Source of the DNA: Bacillota bacterium
Lineage (GTDB): Bacteria; Bacillota_I; Bacilli_A; RFN20; CAG-826
Length of the DNA stretch: 33,451 bases
Assembly (NCBI GenBank): GCA_030537155.1
Contig: JAUNOH010000013.1
Span: 1-33,451 of the forward strand
Direction of reading: 5' to 3'
Position 1 is the stretch's first letter. Each line of letters begins with the position of its first letter. Of this stretch, positions 2,767 to 8,849 are shown in pieces. The notes below the pieces were generated by a model. That model did no database searches. It saw only the letters and a program-made list of their open reading frames with translations, and was not told the origin of the DNA. The position numbers were made by a program, and so were the translations under genes.

Positions 2767-2795
2767 AGGCAGCCAGTTGCGTGGCTGCCTTTTTA
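2767..2795 (+). terminator. Rho-independent terminator after the YitT gene
   Basis: Perfect 9-bp stem AGGCAGCCA/TGGCTGCCT (2767-2775 with 2782-2790), 6-nt loop, then a T run on the plus strand. It lies between two converging genes. On the minus strand the following bases (ATTTTATTG) are moderately T-rich, so it may also end the minus-strand operon. Confidence 0.9.
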
Positions 2796-2811: not shown

Positions 2812-3333
2812 TTAGAAGGGGCAATCGTCCTTCCCCATGGAATAGAGTATGACGTCGCTTGGCTCTCCATTCTCGTCCAAGAGAGCTTCTTTTAAATAGC
2901 CCTCCTGTTTGAAACCCATCTTCTCCATGAGCCTGATTGAAGCGGCGTTCCCGGGGAGGACGTGGGTGGCGAATCTCCTGGCAAAACCCTCCTCAAATAA
3001 CTTTTTAATAAGCGGTGACAGCAATTCGGAGGCCAAGCCCTTGTGGGCGTATTCCTCCTTGAACCAGCCGGCGATTTCCTTTGAACCGGTTTGATAACGT
3101 ATGGGGTCTTCCTTTAAGTAGAGGCATCCGATGGGGGATCCATCCTCGCGATTGGTCATTACGAAACTAGGGAGTTCCCTAATCTCCTCCTTAAACTCCT
3201 CCAGGCTCACTTTGGGGTAGGCGTTGTAACGGTTTACGAATTCGCTGTTACGGGCTTCTAAAAGGGCCTCTGCATCCCCATCCTGAGGTTCTCTTATGAT
3301 GAGCCTAGGCGTCACGACCTTCATGGCTGTCAT
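2812..3333 (-). CDS. GNAT acetyltransferase (RimJ/RimL type), last gene of the RiPP-like operon
   Basis: 173 residues. The N-terminal TPRLIIREPQDGDAEAL is the hallmark beta1/alpha1 of the Acetyltransf_3 (RimJ/RimL-like) branch, and the motif after GWFKEEYAHKGLASELL matches the acetyl-CoA pyrophosphate loop. NAASIRLMEKMGFKQEGY near residues 130-147 is the usual C-terminal motif. Enzymes of this branch acetylate N-terminal or side-chain amines of proteins and small molecules. The start at 3333 has AAAGGA 5 nt upstream and lies 29 bp inside the end of the radical SAM gene, implying translational coupling. I therefore infer that it is part of the same pathway and may acetylate the mature peptide or confer self-protection. 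A housekeeping role cannot be excluded. Confidence 0.88.
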   Translation of the reverse strand: MTAMKVVTPRLIIREPQDGDAEALLEARNSEFVNRYNAYPKVSLEEFKEEIRELPSFVMTNREDGSPIGCLYLKEDPIRYQTGSKEIAGWFKEEYAHKGLASELLSPLIKKLFEEGFARRFATHVLPGNAASIRLMEKMGFKQEGYLKEALLDENGEPSDVILYSMGKDDCPF

Positions 3334-4450
3334 TCAATCCTTTCTGAATCATCAGGGCGGATTTGAGGATGGCCGCGCTGTCTTTCTTCGGGAGGTCGTT
3401 GAGCCGACCGGAGAGGAAGAGCTTCATGGCGAAATAGGCCAGGGCCTCAAATTGGATCTTGTGCATTTCGCAGAGTTTGACGTCGCGCTTATATATATCC
3501 CCAGTCGAGGAGAAATTCTCCCCATAGCAGGTCGGGCAGACGTTTTTGATGACGCACTCGCGGCACATGGGGTTTTGCTTTGAGAAGTCGAAGGAATAGC
3601 CACCCCCGAAATCGATTTTAAGCGACTCTTGGGCTTGCTCTTTGCCGATGCTTAGGGGGAGGAAATGCTGGCAGGGGTAGAATGTCCCATCGTAGTCATA
3701 GGCCTTCATATGGATCCCGGCCCCGCAGTATCGGAGATTGTCCTCCATCTGGTATGACATGCTCTTGATGCGGTTTATCTCAAACAGGGCGCAGGGCTCA
3801 ACCTCGGGGTGGGCGAGGTAGTAATCGATTAACAGGGTCAGCTGCTCGGAATACATCTTCCGGTATTTCTCATCGTCCCAATCGATCCCATAGGCCAAGT
3901 TGGCCGAGACCTTAAAGCCGAATTCGTGGGCAAAGATTATCCCTTCCGCCAGCTGGGGGAGCGTCTCCCTCGATATCGTCATCTTCACCGATTGCTCGGG
4001 ATAGGTGTCCCGGAAGAAGGCCAAGTCGATTTTATCGAAGCAATCGCCACGGTTGACGTTATGCATCTCGCGGGTGCCGTCCAGGCTTAAGCCGATCTGC
4101 AAGAGGTCCGCGTTTTCCCTAAGCCATTTCTTCCTGGGCTCGGTAAGCAGGACCCCGTTGGTGGTGATGAAGAAGATGAAGGCCTTCTCGTAATCCTTTT
4201 TCTTGGTCTCCTCGACCAATCTCTTGATTGTCTCGAACTCCAGCAGAGGCTCGCCCCCGAAGAGGTCTATCTCCACCATATCGGTCCCGTCGTCCATCCT
4301 CATTTCCTTGTCGATGATGGACATGGCCATTTCAAAGCTCATCCTCTCGTTGCCCTTATGAAGCTCATAGCAATAGGTGCATCTTAGGTTGCATTGATGG
4401 GTCAAAACCAAGGTTATGCTCTTGGTTTTTCCTTCGCTTTCGTATGACAT
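3305..4450 (-). CDS. Radical SAM/SPASM peptide maturase
   Basis: 381 residues. The radical SAM cluster motif C20-x3-C24-x2-C27 (CNLRCTYC) sits near the N-terminus, and GGEPLL (65-70) is the SAM-binding GGE-type motif. The C-terminus is a SPASM domain: C242-x17-C260, then C296-x2-C299-x5-C305-x2-C308 and C327, enough for two auxiliary iron-sulfur clusters. SPASM enzymes commonly modify ribosomal peptides, for example by thioether or carbon-carbon crosslinks. The immediate upstream gene encodes a 55-residue six-cysteine peptide, its probable substrate. AGGAGA lies about 9 nt before the ATG. The N-terminus carries no recognisable RiPP recognition domain by eye; leader binding may be done by an extension that I cannot identify. 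An anaerobic sulfatase-maturase role is less likely because no sulfatase is nearby. Confidence 0.92.
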   Translation of the reverse strand: MSYESEGKTKSITLVLTHQCNLRCTYCYELHKGNERMSFEMAMSIIDKEMRMDDGTDMVEIDLFGGEPLLEFETIKRLVEETKKKDYEKAFIFFITTNGVLLTEPRKKWLRENADLLQIGLSLDGTREMHNVNRGDCFDKIDLAFFRDTYPEQSVKMTISRETLPQLAEGIIFAHEFGFKVSANLAYGIDWDDEKYRKMYSEQLTLLIDYYLAHPEVEPCALFEINRIKSMSYQMEDNLRYCGAGIHMKAYDYDGTFYPCQHFLPLSIGKEQAQESLKIDFGGGYSFDFSKQNPMCRECVIKNVCPTCYGENFSSTGDIYKRDVKLCEMHKIQFEALAYFAMKLFLSGRLNDLPKKDSAAILKSALMIQKGLNDSHEGRDA

Positions 4451-4474
4451 TGTCTTCTTCTCCTAGCATGTTTC

Positions 4475-4502
4475 GGACGCGCCAAGATGATGTGGCGCGT
4501 CC
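4475..4502 (-). promoter_or_regulatory. Strong intercistronic hairpin between precursor and maturase genes
   Basis: A perfect 10-bp GC-rich stem (GGACGCGCCA with TGGCGCGTCC, 4475-4484 and 4493-4502) with an 8-nt loop lies 15 nt after the precursor stop and upstream of the maturase ribosome binding site. No T run follows on the minus strand. It therefore looks like a leaky terminator or a 3'-end stability hairpin rather than a full stop, which would keep peptide mRNA more abundant than enzyme mRNA. Confidence 0.75.
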
Positions 4503-4517
4503 ATGTGTTTTGGAAAC

Positions 4518-4685
4518 TTATTTCTTTTCCTTGCTGGCCTTGCATTTGTTGGCGCAGTTTTCGGCGCAGCTGTTTGAGCAGGTCATGCAGCCGCCCATCG
4601 AATAGTAGCAATCGCTGGATTCGACGTATTCGCTTTCGACGAACGATTCGACCATGGCCAATTCGTTGTTATCGATCTTGAACAT
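4518..4685 (-). CDS. Six-cysteine small peptide, putative RiPP precursor
   Basis: 55 residues from the ATG at 4685, chosen because AAAGGGGG lies 8 nt upstream; a longer frame back to 4733 would need a TTG start. The N-terminal half is acidic and Cys-free (start MFKIDNNELAMVESFVESEY, leader-like). The C-terminal half holds all six cysteines: C26-x6-C33-x2-C36-x3-C40-x3-C44-x3-C48, ending in a Lys-rich tail. The regular x3 spacing with Ser/Asn/Ala between cysteines is what is seen in peptides crosslinked by SPASM enzymes (ranthipeptide/SCIFF-like), but the spacing and the lack of a QSACKTSC block differ from the SCIFF consensus as I know it. It lies between an AMP-forming ligase and a SPASM enzyme on the same strand. 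A metal-binding peptide is the alternative. Confidence 0.8.
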   Translation of the reverse strand: MFKIDNNELAMVESFVESEYVESSDCYYSMGGCMTCSNSCAENCANKCKASKEKK

Positions 4686-4733
4686 TTCGGTACCCCCTTT
4701 CATTGATGTGTTGTCTATATTACCTTCCCTCAA

Positions 4734-6221
4734 TCATCTGCTTTCGGGATGGTTTTCGGTGTTTTTGATGCATTCCTCGGCTAGGCTAAGGAGTTTGCCC
4801 TTATCGAGTTTTCCGTTGGGCAATAACGGGAATTTCTCGTAAAAGAGAATGCGGTCGGGAATCTTGAATGAAGGAAGTTTCTCCCTCAGCCGATCCTTTA
4901 TTTCGGCCTCGCTCAATTGCTGGTTTCCTTTTTCGATGAGGGCCACTATTTGATCGCCTAGGAAGTAATCATTCCTTCCATAGACATAGGCGTCCTCGAC
5001 GCCATCTAAGGCGGATAGGGCATCCCTGATCTCGACTGGGTAGACTTTTTCTCCGGCCCGATTGATCATCTCGTCCTTTCTGGAAAGATAGACTAGGTAG
5101 CCCTTTTGGTTGAGATAGCCCAGATCCCCGGTGTGGAAGTAGGAGTCCCCGTCGACGATCGACTGGTCTCCATATTTCAGATAATCGGACTTGATATATA
5201 TCTCGCCAGGCTTCCCTTTTTCCAAAGCCTGTCCGCTTTCGGGGTCAACGATTTTGATGCTGATGTCCGAGAGGGGCTTTCCGACGCTTTCGAGGATGTC
5301 GGGCACTGAATCGTCGAGCATGCTGTGGGCGACGGCCGCGCACTCGCTGCTGCCGTAGAGCTTTAAAAAGGAAACCCCGGGTAAGGCGGAGAATATATCC
5401 ATCATGGCCGCCTTGCTGGGGCTGGCCCCGCCGATCGTGCTCGTCCTTAAGTGCGATTGGTCAAAATCCTTCAGGTATTCGCTATGGGCCAAGGCCAACA
5501 TGAGGGTTGGGACGGCGTTGATGATGGTGCATCTGCCTCCCTCTAGGCAAGAGAAGACGTCTTTGCTCCTGGTGCTGGCGGGTATATATAAAGGAACGCC
5601 CACCATCAGGCAGGGCAAAAGGGTTCCTAAGCCAAAGATGTGATTGAGGGGCAAAACGAGGCAGCACGAATCTCCGGGCCTCATTTTCTCCATATTCGCG
5701 ATGGCATCGATGGAGAATATCAATTGCCTTTCGGTGGCCCCGATTAGCTTGGGGGTGCCGCTGCTGCCGGAAGTCAAAAAATATAGGACTGGCAAGTGCT
5801 CGCGTTTATCGATTTCTCCCTCGGGGAAACTGGATATATGAGGCTCGCCCTCCTCATCTATTTTCACTAGGTGCGTCAATTTAAGAGAAGAGGCGGTGGT
5901 TACGAGCTCCTTATCGACGCTTTTGTAATTGAAAAGGATCATGACGGCGCCCAGGTGATTTAAAGCGAAGAAAGAGGCCGCCCAACCCGCTGAATTGGGC
6001 CCGCAGAATCCGACGTGGCAACCCTTATGGATTCCGTTATCGGAGAAGGTTTGAATGAGCTTCTCGGTTGTCTTTTTTAAATCGCCATAGGTAAAGGAGA
6101 CGCCATGATAAACCATGGCTACCTTTGATGAGTCCTCGTCGCATTTATCGAAAAAAAGCTCGCCCAAACCTTTGGGCTGTTGGACATAGCGATATTGTCC
6201 TTCGATTAAAAAATCCCCCAC
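4734..6221 (-). CDS. AMP-forming acyl-CoA synthetase/ligase, first gene of the RiPP-like operon
   Basis: 495 residues of the ANL superfamily. Seen in order: the phosphate-binding loop YFLTSGSSGTPK (147-158), YGSSE (289-293), TGDLGYL with the adenylate-binding Asp366, SRKDEMINRAG with Arg381 at the hinge, and PNGKLDK with the catalytic Lys471. All key residues are intact, so adenylation of a carboxylic acid should occur. The N-terminal third resembles class I CoA ligases. The substrate cannot be told. The start is a GTG at 6221 preceded by AGGGGGG. It ends 48 bp before the Cys-rich peptide gene and shares its promoter. In context it could activate an acyl group to be joined to the peptide or activate a peptide carboxylate; a separate fatty-acid role is possible. 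Confidence 0.9.
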   Translation of the reverse strand: MGDFLIEGQYRYVQQPKGLGELFFDKCDEDSSKVAMVYHGVSFTYGDLKKTTEKLIQTFSDNGIHKGCHVGFCGPNSAGWAASFFALNHLGAVMILFNYKSVDKELVTTASSLKLTHLVKIDEEGEPHISSFPEGEIDKREHLPVLYFLTSGSSGTPKLIGATERQLIFSIDAIANMEKMRPGDSCCLVLPLNHIFGLGTLLPCLMVGVPLYIPASTRSKDVFSCLEGGRCTIINAVPTLMLALAHSEYLKDFDQSHLRTSTIGGASPSKAAMMDIFSALPGVSFLKLYGSSECAAVAHSMLDDSVPDILESVGKPLSDISIKIVDPESGQALEKGKPGEIYIKSDYLKYGDQSIVDGDSYFHTGDLGYLNQKGYLVYLSRKDEMINRAGEKVYPVEIRDALSALDGVEDAYVYGRNDYFLGDQIVALIEKGNQQLSEAEIKDRLREKLPSFKIPDRILFYEKFPLLPNGKLDKGKLLSLAEECIKNTENHPESR

Positions 6222-6242
6222 GGTCCCCCCTATGTATTGTTA

Positions 6243-6270
6243 ATGATACCTTTAAGATGAGATAGAGCAA
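6243..6270 (-). promoter_or_regulatory. Promoter of the RiPP-like operon
   Basis: On the minus strand: -35 TTGCTC (6270-6265), 16-bp spacer, -10 TATCAT (6248-6243). It leaves a short leader containing AGGGGGG before the GTG at 6221. No other clear promoter was seen between here and the GNAT gene, so the four genes probably share it. Confidence 0.65.
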
Positions 6271-6344: not shown

Positions 6345-6369
6345 AAACCGGAGCTAATTGCCCCGGTTT
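6345..6369 (-). terminator. Rho-independent terminator of the repeat lipoprotein gene
   Basis: Stem AAACCGG/CCGGTTT (6345-6351 with 6363-6369), extended inward by GC/GC after one mismatch. On the minus strand it is followed by TTTTTTATATTT. It lies 11 nt past the stop of the lipoprotein gene. Confidence 0.85.
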
Positions 6370-6380
6370 ATGGAAGTGAG

Positions 6381-8702
6381 TTAGAGACGAGTTATCGAGC
6401 CGACGGTCCCGCCCTCGTTTTTGCCATAGGCCCCATAATCGCCGTCATAGCTGATGCTGGTTGAGGTGTAACTATCAGTGGTATAGCCCTGTCTGGATTC
6501 GGAGGTGTTGAACGATAGCTCGACGGTGCTGGCACCGGTCAAACTGCCAAGATTGTAACCGACGATGGTTCCGACGGTTCCGGTGGAGGTGGTGCTTAGA
6601 GGCCATCCGCTGGTGCCTACGTTCTTTATCCTGTTGGTTATGATCTCAGAACTGAAGGACATAGAATGAGTCAAACTGCAATTGCTCACCGTTTTGTTGT
6701 TAACGGCACAGATTCCACCAAAATTACCACGGAGATTTAGATTCCAGAAATCACTTCCGGCCACTCCGCCGATCGCACCCATCATTGATTGGATGTAACC
6801 GTAGGTGCTGAAGGTTGAGTTGGCGGCGTTGGTGCAATTCGAGATGGTTCCTCTGTTATTGGCGACGAAGCCACCGAAATTGACGGTCGTGGCATCGTTA
6901 AGGACAGAGGATTGAGCAGAGGCCGCCCAAGTGAAGTAACGCCTATCAGCACGCGAGTTCTTCATCGTAAGGTTGCCGGTGAGCTTGCAGCTATCGATGA
7001 TGCCATAGTTGGTGACGGCAATCGAGCCGTAATCGGCGGTGATGTTGTCGGCGTCGGTCCAGTTTTCCCAAGTGTTGCTCTTGTCTAGGTCGAAGGAGAC
7101 AACCACGCTGAAGCTGTCGACGGAGAGATTCCTGACGGTCCCATAGTTTTCGGCGAATAATCCACCGGTCGAATGGACCCTCGAGTTATCGTTTGAGAGA
7201 TTGTAGGAGAAATTGGTGAGCGAGTGGTCGTTGCCATCCAAGACGCCGGCGAAATTGCTGATGGGGGTCCACCAGGATCCGCTCATGTCGATGTCGTTGG
7301 CCAAATAGTAGTAGCCGTCTAAATCGTTGGCGATCTTCTCAACGTCGCTCCTGGTGCTCAGGGCGGTGTAAAGCGGGTTATATTCTCCGCAGCCCCTGGA
7401 GCAGGTCAATTCCAATCCGTTGGAGCCGAAGGTGTGACTGAGCTTGGCGATTTCCGTGCGGTCGGTGATGACCTGATGGCAGACGCTGCAGGAATAGCTG
7501 GCGGTGTAACCAACGGATTTGCAGGTCGGCTCGACGGCGTTGTCGTCCTTAACAAGGGTATGATCGCTCATCGGGATTTGCTCACGGTCGCTGAGATGCT
7601 TGCTGCAATTGGCACAGTGGGTGCTGGCGGTGTAACCATAGCTGGTGCAGGTCGGCTCGATGCCGTTTTCATCGCTCACGGCGACGTGGTCGATCATCGC
7701 GATTTCCTCACGCGGAACGATCAATTGCTTACAAACGCTGCAGCTCTGGCTTTCGGTGTAGCCGATGCTGATGCAGGTCGGCTCGACGGCATCGTTATTT
7801 CCGACTAAGGTGTGGGCCTTCAGCGGAAGGGCTTGCTGAGCGGACAGGACGGTGTGGCATACCGAGCAGCTGGTGCTGGAAGATAATCCGGCCTCAGTGC
7901 AGGTGGATTCAACTCTATTCCCATCGTCGACCGGCGTGTGGTCAACCATCGGGATGACTTCTTGCTCTTGGGTCAAAGTGCCGCAAACAGAGCAGTGGTA
8001 GCTGGCGGTTAAGCCAGTGGCGGTGCAGGTGGCCTCGGTTCCGTTATTATCGGAAACGGGAGTATGGTCGAGCATCGGGATTTCCTCTCTTTGCACGATG
8101 ACTTTATTGCAGACGCTGCAGGTCTTGCTCGAGGTCCAACCGGTCGAGGTGCAGGTGGCGGCAACGCCGTTACCGTCATCGACTAAGGTGTGGTTCCCGG
8201 TGGCGGCCAACGTTTCGGTCACTTTCTCACTGCAGAAATAGACGTATTCCCCGACGGTGATCTGAGCCGAATGCTCCTGAGAGCCGGCAGCGTCACAGGT
8301 CGGCTGCTGCAAGACGGTGGTGGTGACGGTGGCTTCGTAGGTATATGTGTGCCCCTCGGTCGTTTCGGTGCAGCTTTCCCTGGAGCAAGTGACGGTGGCA
8401 TCGCAGCCATAACCGGTTTTCCACTGCCAGTTGATGTTATTGTAATCGTAAGAGTGCCCTAAGGCGTCGGTATAGGATTCAGTGTCGATGTAGAATTCGC
8501 CGCACGAGCAGACGTATTTGGTATAACCGGCTTCCGTGCAGGTGGCCGCGACGGTCTCGGCCGTGTACTCATGCAGATGCTCGGAACTTGACGCCGAAGC
8601 GCTGTCATCTAAAAGACAGCTAGTCAATAAGGTTGCGCATGCGAATAAAGTGGCGCCAAGCAAACCAAGGCGCCTTTTCCTTTTGAAATTAAAAACTTTC
8701 AT
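6381..8702 (-). CDS. Large surface lipoprotein with six Cys/His repeats and a GLUG-like region
   Basis: 773 residues from the ATG at 8702 (GGGGGG upstream). Basic N-terminus, hydrophobic stretch, and lipobox L-T-S-C29 give a lipoprotein signal. Residues 41-170 hold less regular Cys-rich units. Residues 171-422 are six tandem units of exactly 42 residues, each with invariant H1, C14, C25 and C28 (pattern H...TC...C-S-V-C). Residues about 435-773 contain repeated G-G-x2-x-x-N-x-G-T-[IV]-x-N-[CL] segments like the GLUG motif, which builds beta-helix-type surface domains. Proteins with such zinc-ribbon-like repeats are known from gut Bacillota surface proteins, role unclear. I infer a cell-surface binding protein. 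It is monocistronic with its own terminator, followed on its other side by tRNA-Ser. Confidence 0.85.
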   Translation of the reverse strand: MKVFNFKRKRRLGLLGATLFACATLLTSCLLDDSASASSSEHLHEYTAETVAATCTEAGYTKYVCSCGEFYIDTESYTDALGHSYDYNNINWQWKTGYGCDATVTCSRESCTETTEGHTYTYEATVTTTVLQQPTCDAAGSQEHSAQITVGEYVYFCSEKVTETLAATGNHTLVDDGNGVAATCTSTGWTSSKTCSVCNKVIVQREEIPMLDHTPVSDNNGTEATCTATGLTASYHCSVCGTLTQEQEVIPMVDHTPVDDGNRVESTCTEAGLSSSTSCSVCHTVLSAQQALPLKAHTLVGNNDAVEPTCISIGYTESQSCSVCKQLIVPREEIAMIDHVAVSDENGIEPTCTSYGYTASTHCANCSKHLSDREQIPMSDHTLVKDDNAVEPTCKSVGYTASYSCSVCHQVITDRTEIAKLSHTFGSNGLELTCSRGCGEYNPLYTALSTRSDVEKIANDLDGYYYLANDIDMSGSWWTPISNFAGVLDGNDHSLTNFSYNLSNDNSRVHSTGGLFAENYGTVRNLSVDSFSVVVSFDLDKSNTWENWTDADNITADYGSIAVTNYGIIDSCKLTGNLTMKNSRADRRYFTWAASAQSSVLNDATTVNFGGFVANNRGTISNCTNAANSTFSTYGYIQSMMGAIGGVAGSDFWNLNLRGNFGGICAVNNKTVSNCSLTHSMSFSSEIITNRIKNVGTSGWPLSTTSTGTVGTIVGYNLGSLTGASTVELSFNTSESRQGYTTDSYTSTSISYDGDYGAYGKNEGGTVGSITRL
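7437..8192 (-). repeat. Six tandem 126-bp (42-residue) repeats
   Basis: Six in-frame units without any insertion or deletion between them. Conserved H1-x12-C14-x10-C25-x2-C28 in every unit, followed by a hydrophobic E-I-P-M-type end. DNA identity between units is partial, so they are old duplications under selection for spacing. The His/Cys set could bind one zinc ion per unit, which is an inference. Confidence 0.88.
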
Positions 8703-8726
8703 AATCCCCCCTTGGAATTCGCCATC

Positions 8727-8732
8727 ATAATA
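8727..8732 (-). promoter_or_regulatory. -10 element for the repeat lipoprotein gene
   Basis: TATTAT on the minus strand about 24 nt before the ATG at 8702, leaving a short leader with a GGGGGG ribosome binding site. The -35 (TGTCTA, 8755-8750, 17-bp spacer) is weak. Confidence 0.5.
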
Positions 8733-8849
8733 CACGCCTTTGCTTTGTTTAGACACCCCCAATTTCGACATTGCTTTCCAAAAGGAAAATATCAATTCAA
8801 ATGGGATTTGTCGGTTTTTTTGGATATGAGCGGGCGTTAAAACAAAAAA

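Follow-up and report, generated by a model that had tools for sequence, protein, structure and literature searches.

The four-gene locus

The stretch of DNA described here (hereafter the window, 33,451 nucleotides) is contig C25 (JAUNOH010000013.1) of a 1.33-Mb draft genome of a Bacillota bacterium, labelled G000. Its minus strand carries four genes in a row, encoding an AMP-forming acyl ligase of the ANL superfamily, a cysteine-rich peptide, a radical S-adenosylmethionine (SAM) enzyme with a SPASM domain, and a GNAT N-acyltransferase (Table 1). All four open reading frames (ORFs) are present and intact where the initial annotation had placed them. The sequences contain this gene set, a conserved peptide-enzyme pair, the catalytic motifs, a four-gene order that recurs in a second genome, and a conserved GNAT gene beside a replaceable ligase gene. 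The peptide and the SPASM enzyme very probably form the core of a system for a ribosomally synthesized and post-translationally modified peptide (RiPP), as a new branch near the CXXX-repeat and PapB-type systems. For the operon as a whole, the balance tips slightly towards an acylated, radical SAM-modified, Cys-rich RiPP as its product, because of the pairing of ligase and acyltransferase and because a lysine follows the last cysteine in the GNAT-bearing peptides.

Table 1. Genes, core motif and hairpins of the operon, in the order of transcription (window coordinates)
Feature	Position	Strand	Details
Terminator-like hairpin of the upstream gene (upper operon boundary)	6345..6369	-	folding z -5.1
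ANL-superfamily (AMP-forming) acyl ligase	4734..6221	-	495 aa, GTG start; PF00501 E 4.7e-51, PF13193 2.7e-10
Precursor peptide	4518..4685	-	55 aa, ATG start; MFKIDNNELAMVESFVESEYVESSDCYYSMGGCMTCSNSCAENCANKCKASKEKK; acidic Cys-free leader (MFKIDNNEL...) and Cys-rich core
Core motif CX2CX3CX3CX3C (C33-C48), Lys49 directly after	4542..4589	-	single occurrence in the window
GC-rich hairpin between the precursor and radical SAM genes	4475..4502	-	10 bp; -22.6 kcal/mol with flanks; z -5.6
Radical SAM/SPASM peptide maturase	3305..4450	-	381 aa; PF04055 E 1.9e-13
GNAT N-acyltransferase, Rim/SpeG-type fold	2812..3333	-	PF13302 E 2e-17; true start may be 3324
Terminator-like hairpin (operon end)	2767..2790	-	9 bp stem, T-rich tail; folding z -6.3

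The genes are separated by 48 nt (ligase and peptide) and 67 nt (peptide and SPASM enzyme), and the last two overlap. This overlap had been counted as 29 nt, from the first ATG of the GNAT gene; one of 20 nt is equally likely, because the alignment with the GNAT of the second genome (G073) begins at Met4. A purine-rich, Shine-Dalgarno-like stretch precedes the start of each gene, and the GC content is 51% in the operon and 53% in the window. The promoter that had been proposed at 6243-6270 was not recovered by a sigma-70 scan and is left unsupported. The hairpin at the operon end is usable on either strand and is common to the operon and a convergent YitT-family gene. The one between the precursor and SPASM genes has no T tract on the coding strand; it is a probable RNA-processing or stability element, which perhaps sets the ratio of peptide to enzyme.

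The peptide and its SPASM partner

The radical SAM triad CX3CX2C of the maturase (C20/C24/C27) is invariant in 11 homologues, as are the auxiliary cysteines C242, C260, C296, C299, C305 and C308, with C327 nearly so; this conservation suggests a SPASM domain with the full set of two auxiliary clusters. An AlphaFold model of the enzyme (predicted local distance difference test score, pLDDT, 87.8) extends from the radical SAM barrel through to two C-terminal helices, and in this model there appears to be no room for an N-terminal RiPP recognition element (RRE) domain. Among solved structures the thioether-forming ranthipeptide maturase CteB is the best match both in fold (Foldseek, 5why/5wgg, E 1.9e-18) and in sequence (profile score of 149.5 bits to 5wgg, the next being 82); Foldseek also matched anSME, ChlB and EpeE. 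In NCBIfam, the highest score was obtained with TIGR04115 (CXXX-repeat maturase; 173.3 bits, curated cut-off 350), followed by NF047865 (PapB; 165.1 bits, cut-off 340, alignable over the whole model) and TIGR03974 (SCIFF/CteB; 99.4 bits, cut-off 425), and the score in the comparison with the CLI_3235/CcpM systems was 105 against a cut-off of 500. Since these values lie well under the family cut-offs, the enzyme is, judged by its sequence, a relative of the TIGR04115 and PapB families and a member of neither. By analogy with CteB, its nearest solved relative, thioether links would be the fitting product.

The spacing of the six cysteines given by the initial annotation, C26-x6-C33-x2-C36-x3-C40-x3-C44-x3-C48, is exact in the translation. 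Searched for at the DNA level, CX2CX3CX3CX3C has a single match in the window, and none of 100 shuffled sequences contained it. A Pfam search with the peptide matched no family, and the model of CXXX-repeat targets (TIGR04114, cut-off 20 bits) was not reached by the peptides of the window (12.9), G073 (16.5) or the locus L019 (19.0). At position i+4, C36, C40 and C44 face another cysteine, C33 a serine and C48 a lysine. The peptides of the window and G073 are 43% identical over 49 ungapped residues, with identities of 57/63/37% at the three codon positions.

Ten relatives of the SPASM enzyme, with identities of 32-61%, were found in several phyla. At E <= 1e-30, homologues occur in 6 of 224 genomes of the same family, that is, in the window's own genome, G007, G073, G147, G203 and G074, the last being a distant, true TIGR04115-type enzyme and the other four close relatives. 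A single-sequence search of species-genome contigs returned nothing; relatives were recovered there by an alignment search instead, which added loci of Ruminococcus, Tyzzerella, a deer-gut bacterium, Alistipes, Synergistales and Oscillospiraceae. A small Cys-rich peptide gene adjoins the SPASM gene in G073, G147, G007, G203, L015, L017, L018 and L019; the candidate in L020 is doubtful, and in L016 none was seen. Of 11 loci, which come from Clostridia-type bacteria, Bacteroidota (Alistipes) and Synergistota as well as from the window's family, at least 9 thus have the two genes side by side; the loci were located through the SPASM gene, so that peptides elsewhere in the genomes would be missed. 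In the plasmid and viral collections only more distant SPASM enzymes were found, none with a linked ligase and GNAT.

The initial annotation had held that the RiPP reading would fail if homologues of the peptide mostly occurred without the SPASM gene, and had suggested aligning the precursors. Each homologous peptide that was found adjoined a SPASM gene, and in the alignment the leader mostly begins with MF-x-[LI] and the tail is rich in CX2-3C. An encoded precursor with leader and core, kept beside its modifying enzyme, is what characterizes a RiPP operon, and the reading is upheld. It is barely credible that the four genes stand together by accident and that the 55-aa ORF is no precursor: short ORFs are common and the scan gave no consensus promoter, but peptides with a similar leader start and Cys-rich core adjoin the same enzyme in many genomes, and the core motif was absent from all the shuffled sequences. 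It is also improbable, if less so, that the peptide is a metal- or cluster-binding carrier or a signal, on which the SPASM enzyme makes a change other than thioethers (e.g., epimerization, a C-C link or Cys oxidation). CX2-3C repeats are suited to metal binding, the precursors share no consistent thioether acceptor, and anSME, ChlB and EpeE are enzymes of other chemistry; against these points stand the wide margin by which CteB is the closest solved relative and the CXXX-repeat and PapB maturases as nearest named families.

In the tree of the radical SAM enzymes the window's enzyme is sister to that of G073 (87/90), which belongs to another genus, rather than to that of G007, a member of its own genus. 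Because the tree departs from the genus labels and the distribution is patchy, gene transfer is suggested.

Several further observations concern peptides and maturases of this kind. A double-Gly cleavage site (GG before C33), used by an unlinked C39 protein, was considered and set aside, as the GG is not conserved in G073; the window's genome does encode, away from the operon, a membrane protein of 409 aa that has a C39 peptidase domain and is a possible leader peptidase (L247, G000:C21, 703-1932). On a contig filed as viral (L169, IMGVR_UViG_2876118799_000002, 4253-4695), a SPASM enzyme is directly preceded by three short peptides in tandem (FDVExQYCxPxxCxxDC...NC). In the Anaerococcus prevotii plasmid pAPRE01 (L200, 44-9203), a CXXX maturase lies next to LanKC, a lanthionine synthetase of class III, and the LanKC precursor; two ABC transporters are also encoded there.

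The ligase and the acyltransferase

The ligase has the features of an ANL adenylating enzyme, with both PF00501 and PF13193 domains and conserved catalytic motifs (P-loop TSGSSGTPK, YGSSE, HTGDLGY and the C-terminal NGKLDKGK), and its nearest solved relatives are 4-coumarate/acyl-CoA ligases (3a9u, 2.2e-39). The GNAT model (pLDDT 89.7) resembles protein and polyamine N-acetyltransferases (RimL, RimJ, SpeG); a lasso-peptide acetyltransferase (9iy3) also matches, lower in the list. The modelled fold would fit an amine as the acceptor and leaves the acyl group unspecified.

Mining genomes for the four-gene order, as the initial annotation had proposed, recovered the exact order and orientation in G073, and among the roughly 200 loci that were scanned, no others than this one and the window have ligase and GNAT on either side of the peptide-SPASM pair. 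Besides the 43% of the peptides, the identities between the two loci are 61-62% for the radical SAM enzyme, 32% for the GNAT and 25% for the ligase. The two GNATs are mutual best matches among 220 genomes of the family (88.6 bits, the next being 47.4) and sisters in a tree (83/86). The ligase of G073 groups with G147_C21, G203_C15 and G000_C35 (100/99) and not with that of the window, and orthology of the two was rejected, since forcing them together fails the approximately unbiased (AU) test (p = 3e-6). As the two do not form a clade, a ligase would have reached the slot before the peptide twice, or one would have replaced another. The initial annotation had counted the ligase as part of the operon; it does occupy the same slot in both loci, although it is not a fixed part, being non-orthologous between them. 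It lies on the same strand as the peptide gene, 48 nt away in the window and 56 nt away in G073, and ANL genes are few in each genome (3 in G000), so that chance placement of two ligases would be hard to credit.

Ligases related to that of G073 adjoin an HGSNAT-type acyltransferase in three genomes, and the nearest ligase of G007 adjoins an Acyl_transf_3 protein. Such ligases of this bacterial family thus tend to accompany acyltransferases and, because of these pairings elsewhere, a ligase supplying acyl-CoA to the GNAT is the best reading of the two flanking genes. That this pair acylates the product has, on present comparisons, slightly better than even support. A lysine directly follows the last cysteine in both GNAT-bearing peptides (NKCK in the window, RNCK in G073), and the corresponding residue in seven GNAT-less peptides is Gly (G147), Ser (G007), Tyr (G203), Trp (L015), Gln (L017), Ser (L018) or Val (L019).

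The same genes could also be explained by an ordinary Cys-rich RiPP which the GNAT acetylates with acetyl-CoA, for self-protection or as a finishing step, the ligase being an unrelated activator of fatty or aryl acids on the same transcript. RimL, RimJ and SpeG, which the GNAT fold matches, are acetyl-CoA enzymes that need no dedicated ligase; non-orthologous ligases are what would be expected of a passer-by gene; and most relatives of the SPASM pair lack both ligase and GNAT. The unrelated ligases in the same slot, strand and close spacing in both genomes, as well as the habitual pairing of such ligases with acyltransferases, argue otherwise, and this explanation is considered rather unlikely.

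Other ligase and acyltransferase loci were also observed. A locus in which a GNAT, an ANL ligase, a protein resembling acyl carriers and a CefB/Clo7bot-like SPASM enzyme follow one another (L011, G074:C14, 1997-6141 and 9820-7775) was rejected as a third case of the operon, since its GNAT is 22-23% identical (fold only), its ligase belongs to another clade and a precursor was not seen; nearby on the opposite strand is a true TIGR04115/TIGR04119 CXXX maturase, and the locus is possibly another ligase-fed radical SAM pathway. A conserved pair of HGSNAT-type membrane acyltransferase and ANL ligase occurs in three genomes of the family (L202 4949-7454, L203 4348-6844 and L204 4731-7243). Directly upstream of the G073 ligase (L007, 4262-7214) lie the genes for an NB-ARC/TPR (STAND-like) protein of 832 aa and for a protein of 143 aa that matches no family, 17 nt before the ligase. 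In the window, positions 6381-8795 encode a large, secreted-looking protein that begins with a lipobox-like segment and contains the repeat HxLVxDxNxVxxTCTxxG...C..C many times; its Pfam matches were weak and sub-threshold.

Proposed pathway and related systems

The initial annotation regarded this combination of genes as new. That is so for the addition of ligase and GNAT, whereas the peptide-SPASM pair is kin to named systems. CXXX-repeat systems (TIGR04114/TIGR04115) likewise have a short precursor with a cysteine at every fourth residue and an adjacent SPASM maturase; the window's enzyme, however, reaches half of the cut-off, is single-domain, without the TIGR04119 part of the true member in G074 (L011), and is accompanied by ligase and GNAT. 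PapA/PapB (freyrasin-type ranthipeptides, NF047865) share the SPASM maturase and a Cys-rich core with i,i+4 spacing. PapB joins Cys to Asp/Glu in the CX3D/E motifs of PapA, with an RRE expected to bind the leader (PMC9413430), whereas the i+4 residue in the window's peptide is mostly Cys and the SPASM model has no RRE. SCIFF/CteB combines the closest solved structure with a short six-Cys peptide; the window's enzyme lacks the N-terminal extension of CteB, and the Cys spacing differs.

In selidamides and nostolysamides, which are RiPPs with rings, a GNAT transfers an acyl group from acyl-CoA to the side chain of a Lys or Orn (PMC13060382, PMC9505594). Those systems have NHLP or Nif11 leaders, mostly lanthionine rings, and acyl groups from primary metabolism, whereas here the rings would be made by a radical SAM enzyme and the operon brings its own ligase. 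As in selidamide-type systems, linkage of the GNAT to the precursor recurs between genomes, here in the window's and G073 only; the 55-aa peptide has no Pfam match, and its leader is too short for NHLP or Nif11. CLI_3235/CcpM bacteriocin clusters (TIGR04068, TIGR04066, TIGR04069) unite a Cys-rich peptide, a radical SAM/SPASM enzyme and an acyl-carrier-like protein (PMC10731318). The first two are shared with the window; the published gene table has no ANL ligase or GNAT, and the window's operon has no carrier protein. A connection to CcpM-type clusters through TIGR04069 carrier proteins was discarded, as only weak, generic matches of the acyl-carrier type were obtained. No paper on the present combination was found in the open-access literature, which, as coverage was limited to it, is weak evidence of absence.

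Here we infer, for each of its chemical steps, the following pathway. The 55-aa precursor would be made and its leader, starting with MFKI, recognized by the SPASM enzyme without an RRE domain. Using SAM and two auxiliary Fe-S clusters, this enzyme would join the thiols of several of the five clustered cysteines to carbons in their vicinity, giving thioether rings with a loss of 2 Da each. With ATP, the ANL ligase would activate a carboxylic acid, first as acyl-AMP and then as acyl-CoA, from which the GNAT would transfer the acyl group to an amine of the peptide, most likely that of Lys49 or else another Lys of the tail, and unlinked proteins would remove the leader and export the product. It is tentatively proposed, as possible more than probable, that this is the first ribosomal peptide to combine thioether rings made by a radical SAM enzyme with a lipid or aryl acyl group from its own ligase, a lipidated ranthipeptide whose acyl group changes as lineages exchange the ligase and retain peptide, SPASM enzyme and GNAT.

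A number of points weigh against this pathway. Ligase and GNAT accompany the pair in only two genomes, and because those two also have sister SPASM enzymes the GNAT was probably gained once; the ligases are only 25% identical; the GNAT fold is of the ordinary acetyltransferase type, requiring no ligase; and the substrates of neither enzyme are fixed by the sequences. In the window core there are no CX3D/E motifs as in PapA, no conserved partner residue for Cys is evident across the aligned precursors, and no protease or exporter is linked to the operon. The lysine after the last cysteine, noticed post hoc in two related peptides, is suggestive as a lead only.

If the proposed pathway is true, two RiPP modifications not known together, radical SAM cross-links and ligase-fed acylation, would be joined, and this in gut-type bacteria of small genome whose secondary metabolism is little known. 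Exchange of the ligase would then be a natural case of a lipid tail altered through a single gene, which would be useful for making lipidated cyclic peptides. The SPASM enzymes themselves would represent an RRE-less subfamily, new among the CXXX/PapB-like enzymes, which occurs in several phyla and is reachable by simple co-expression tests.

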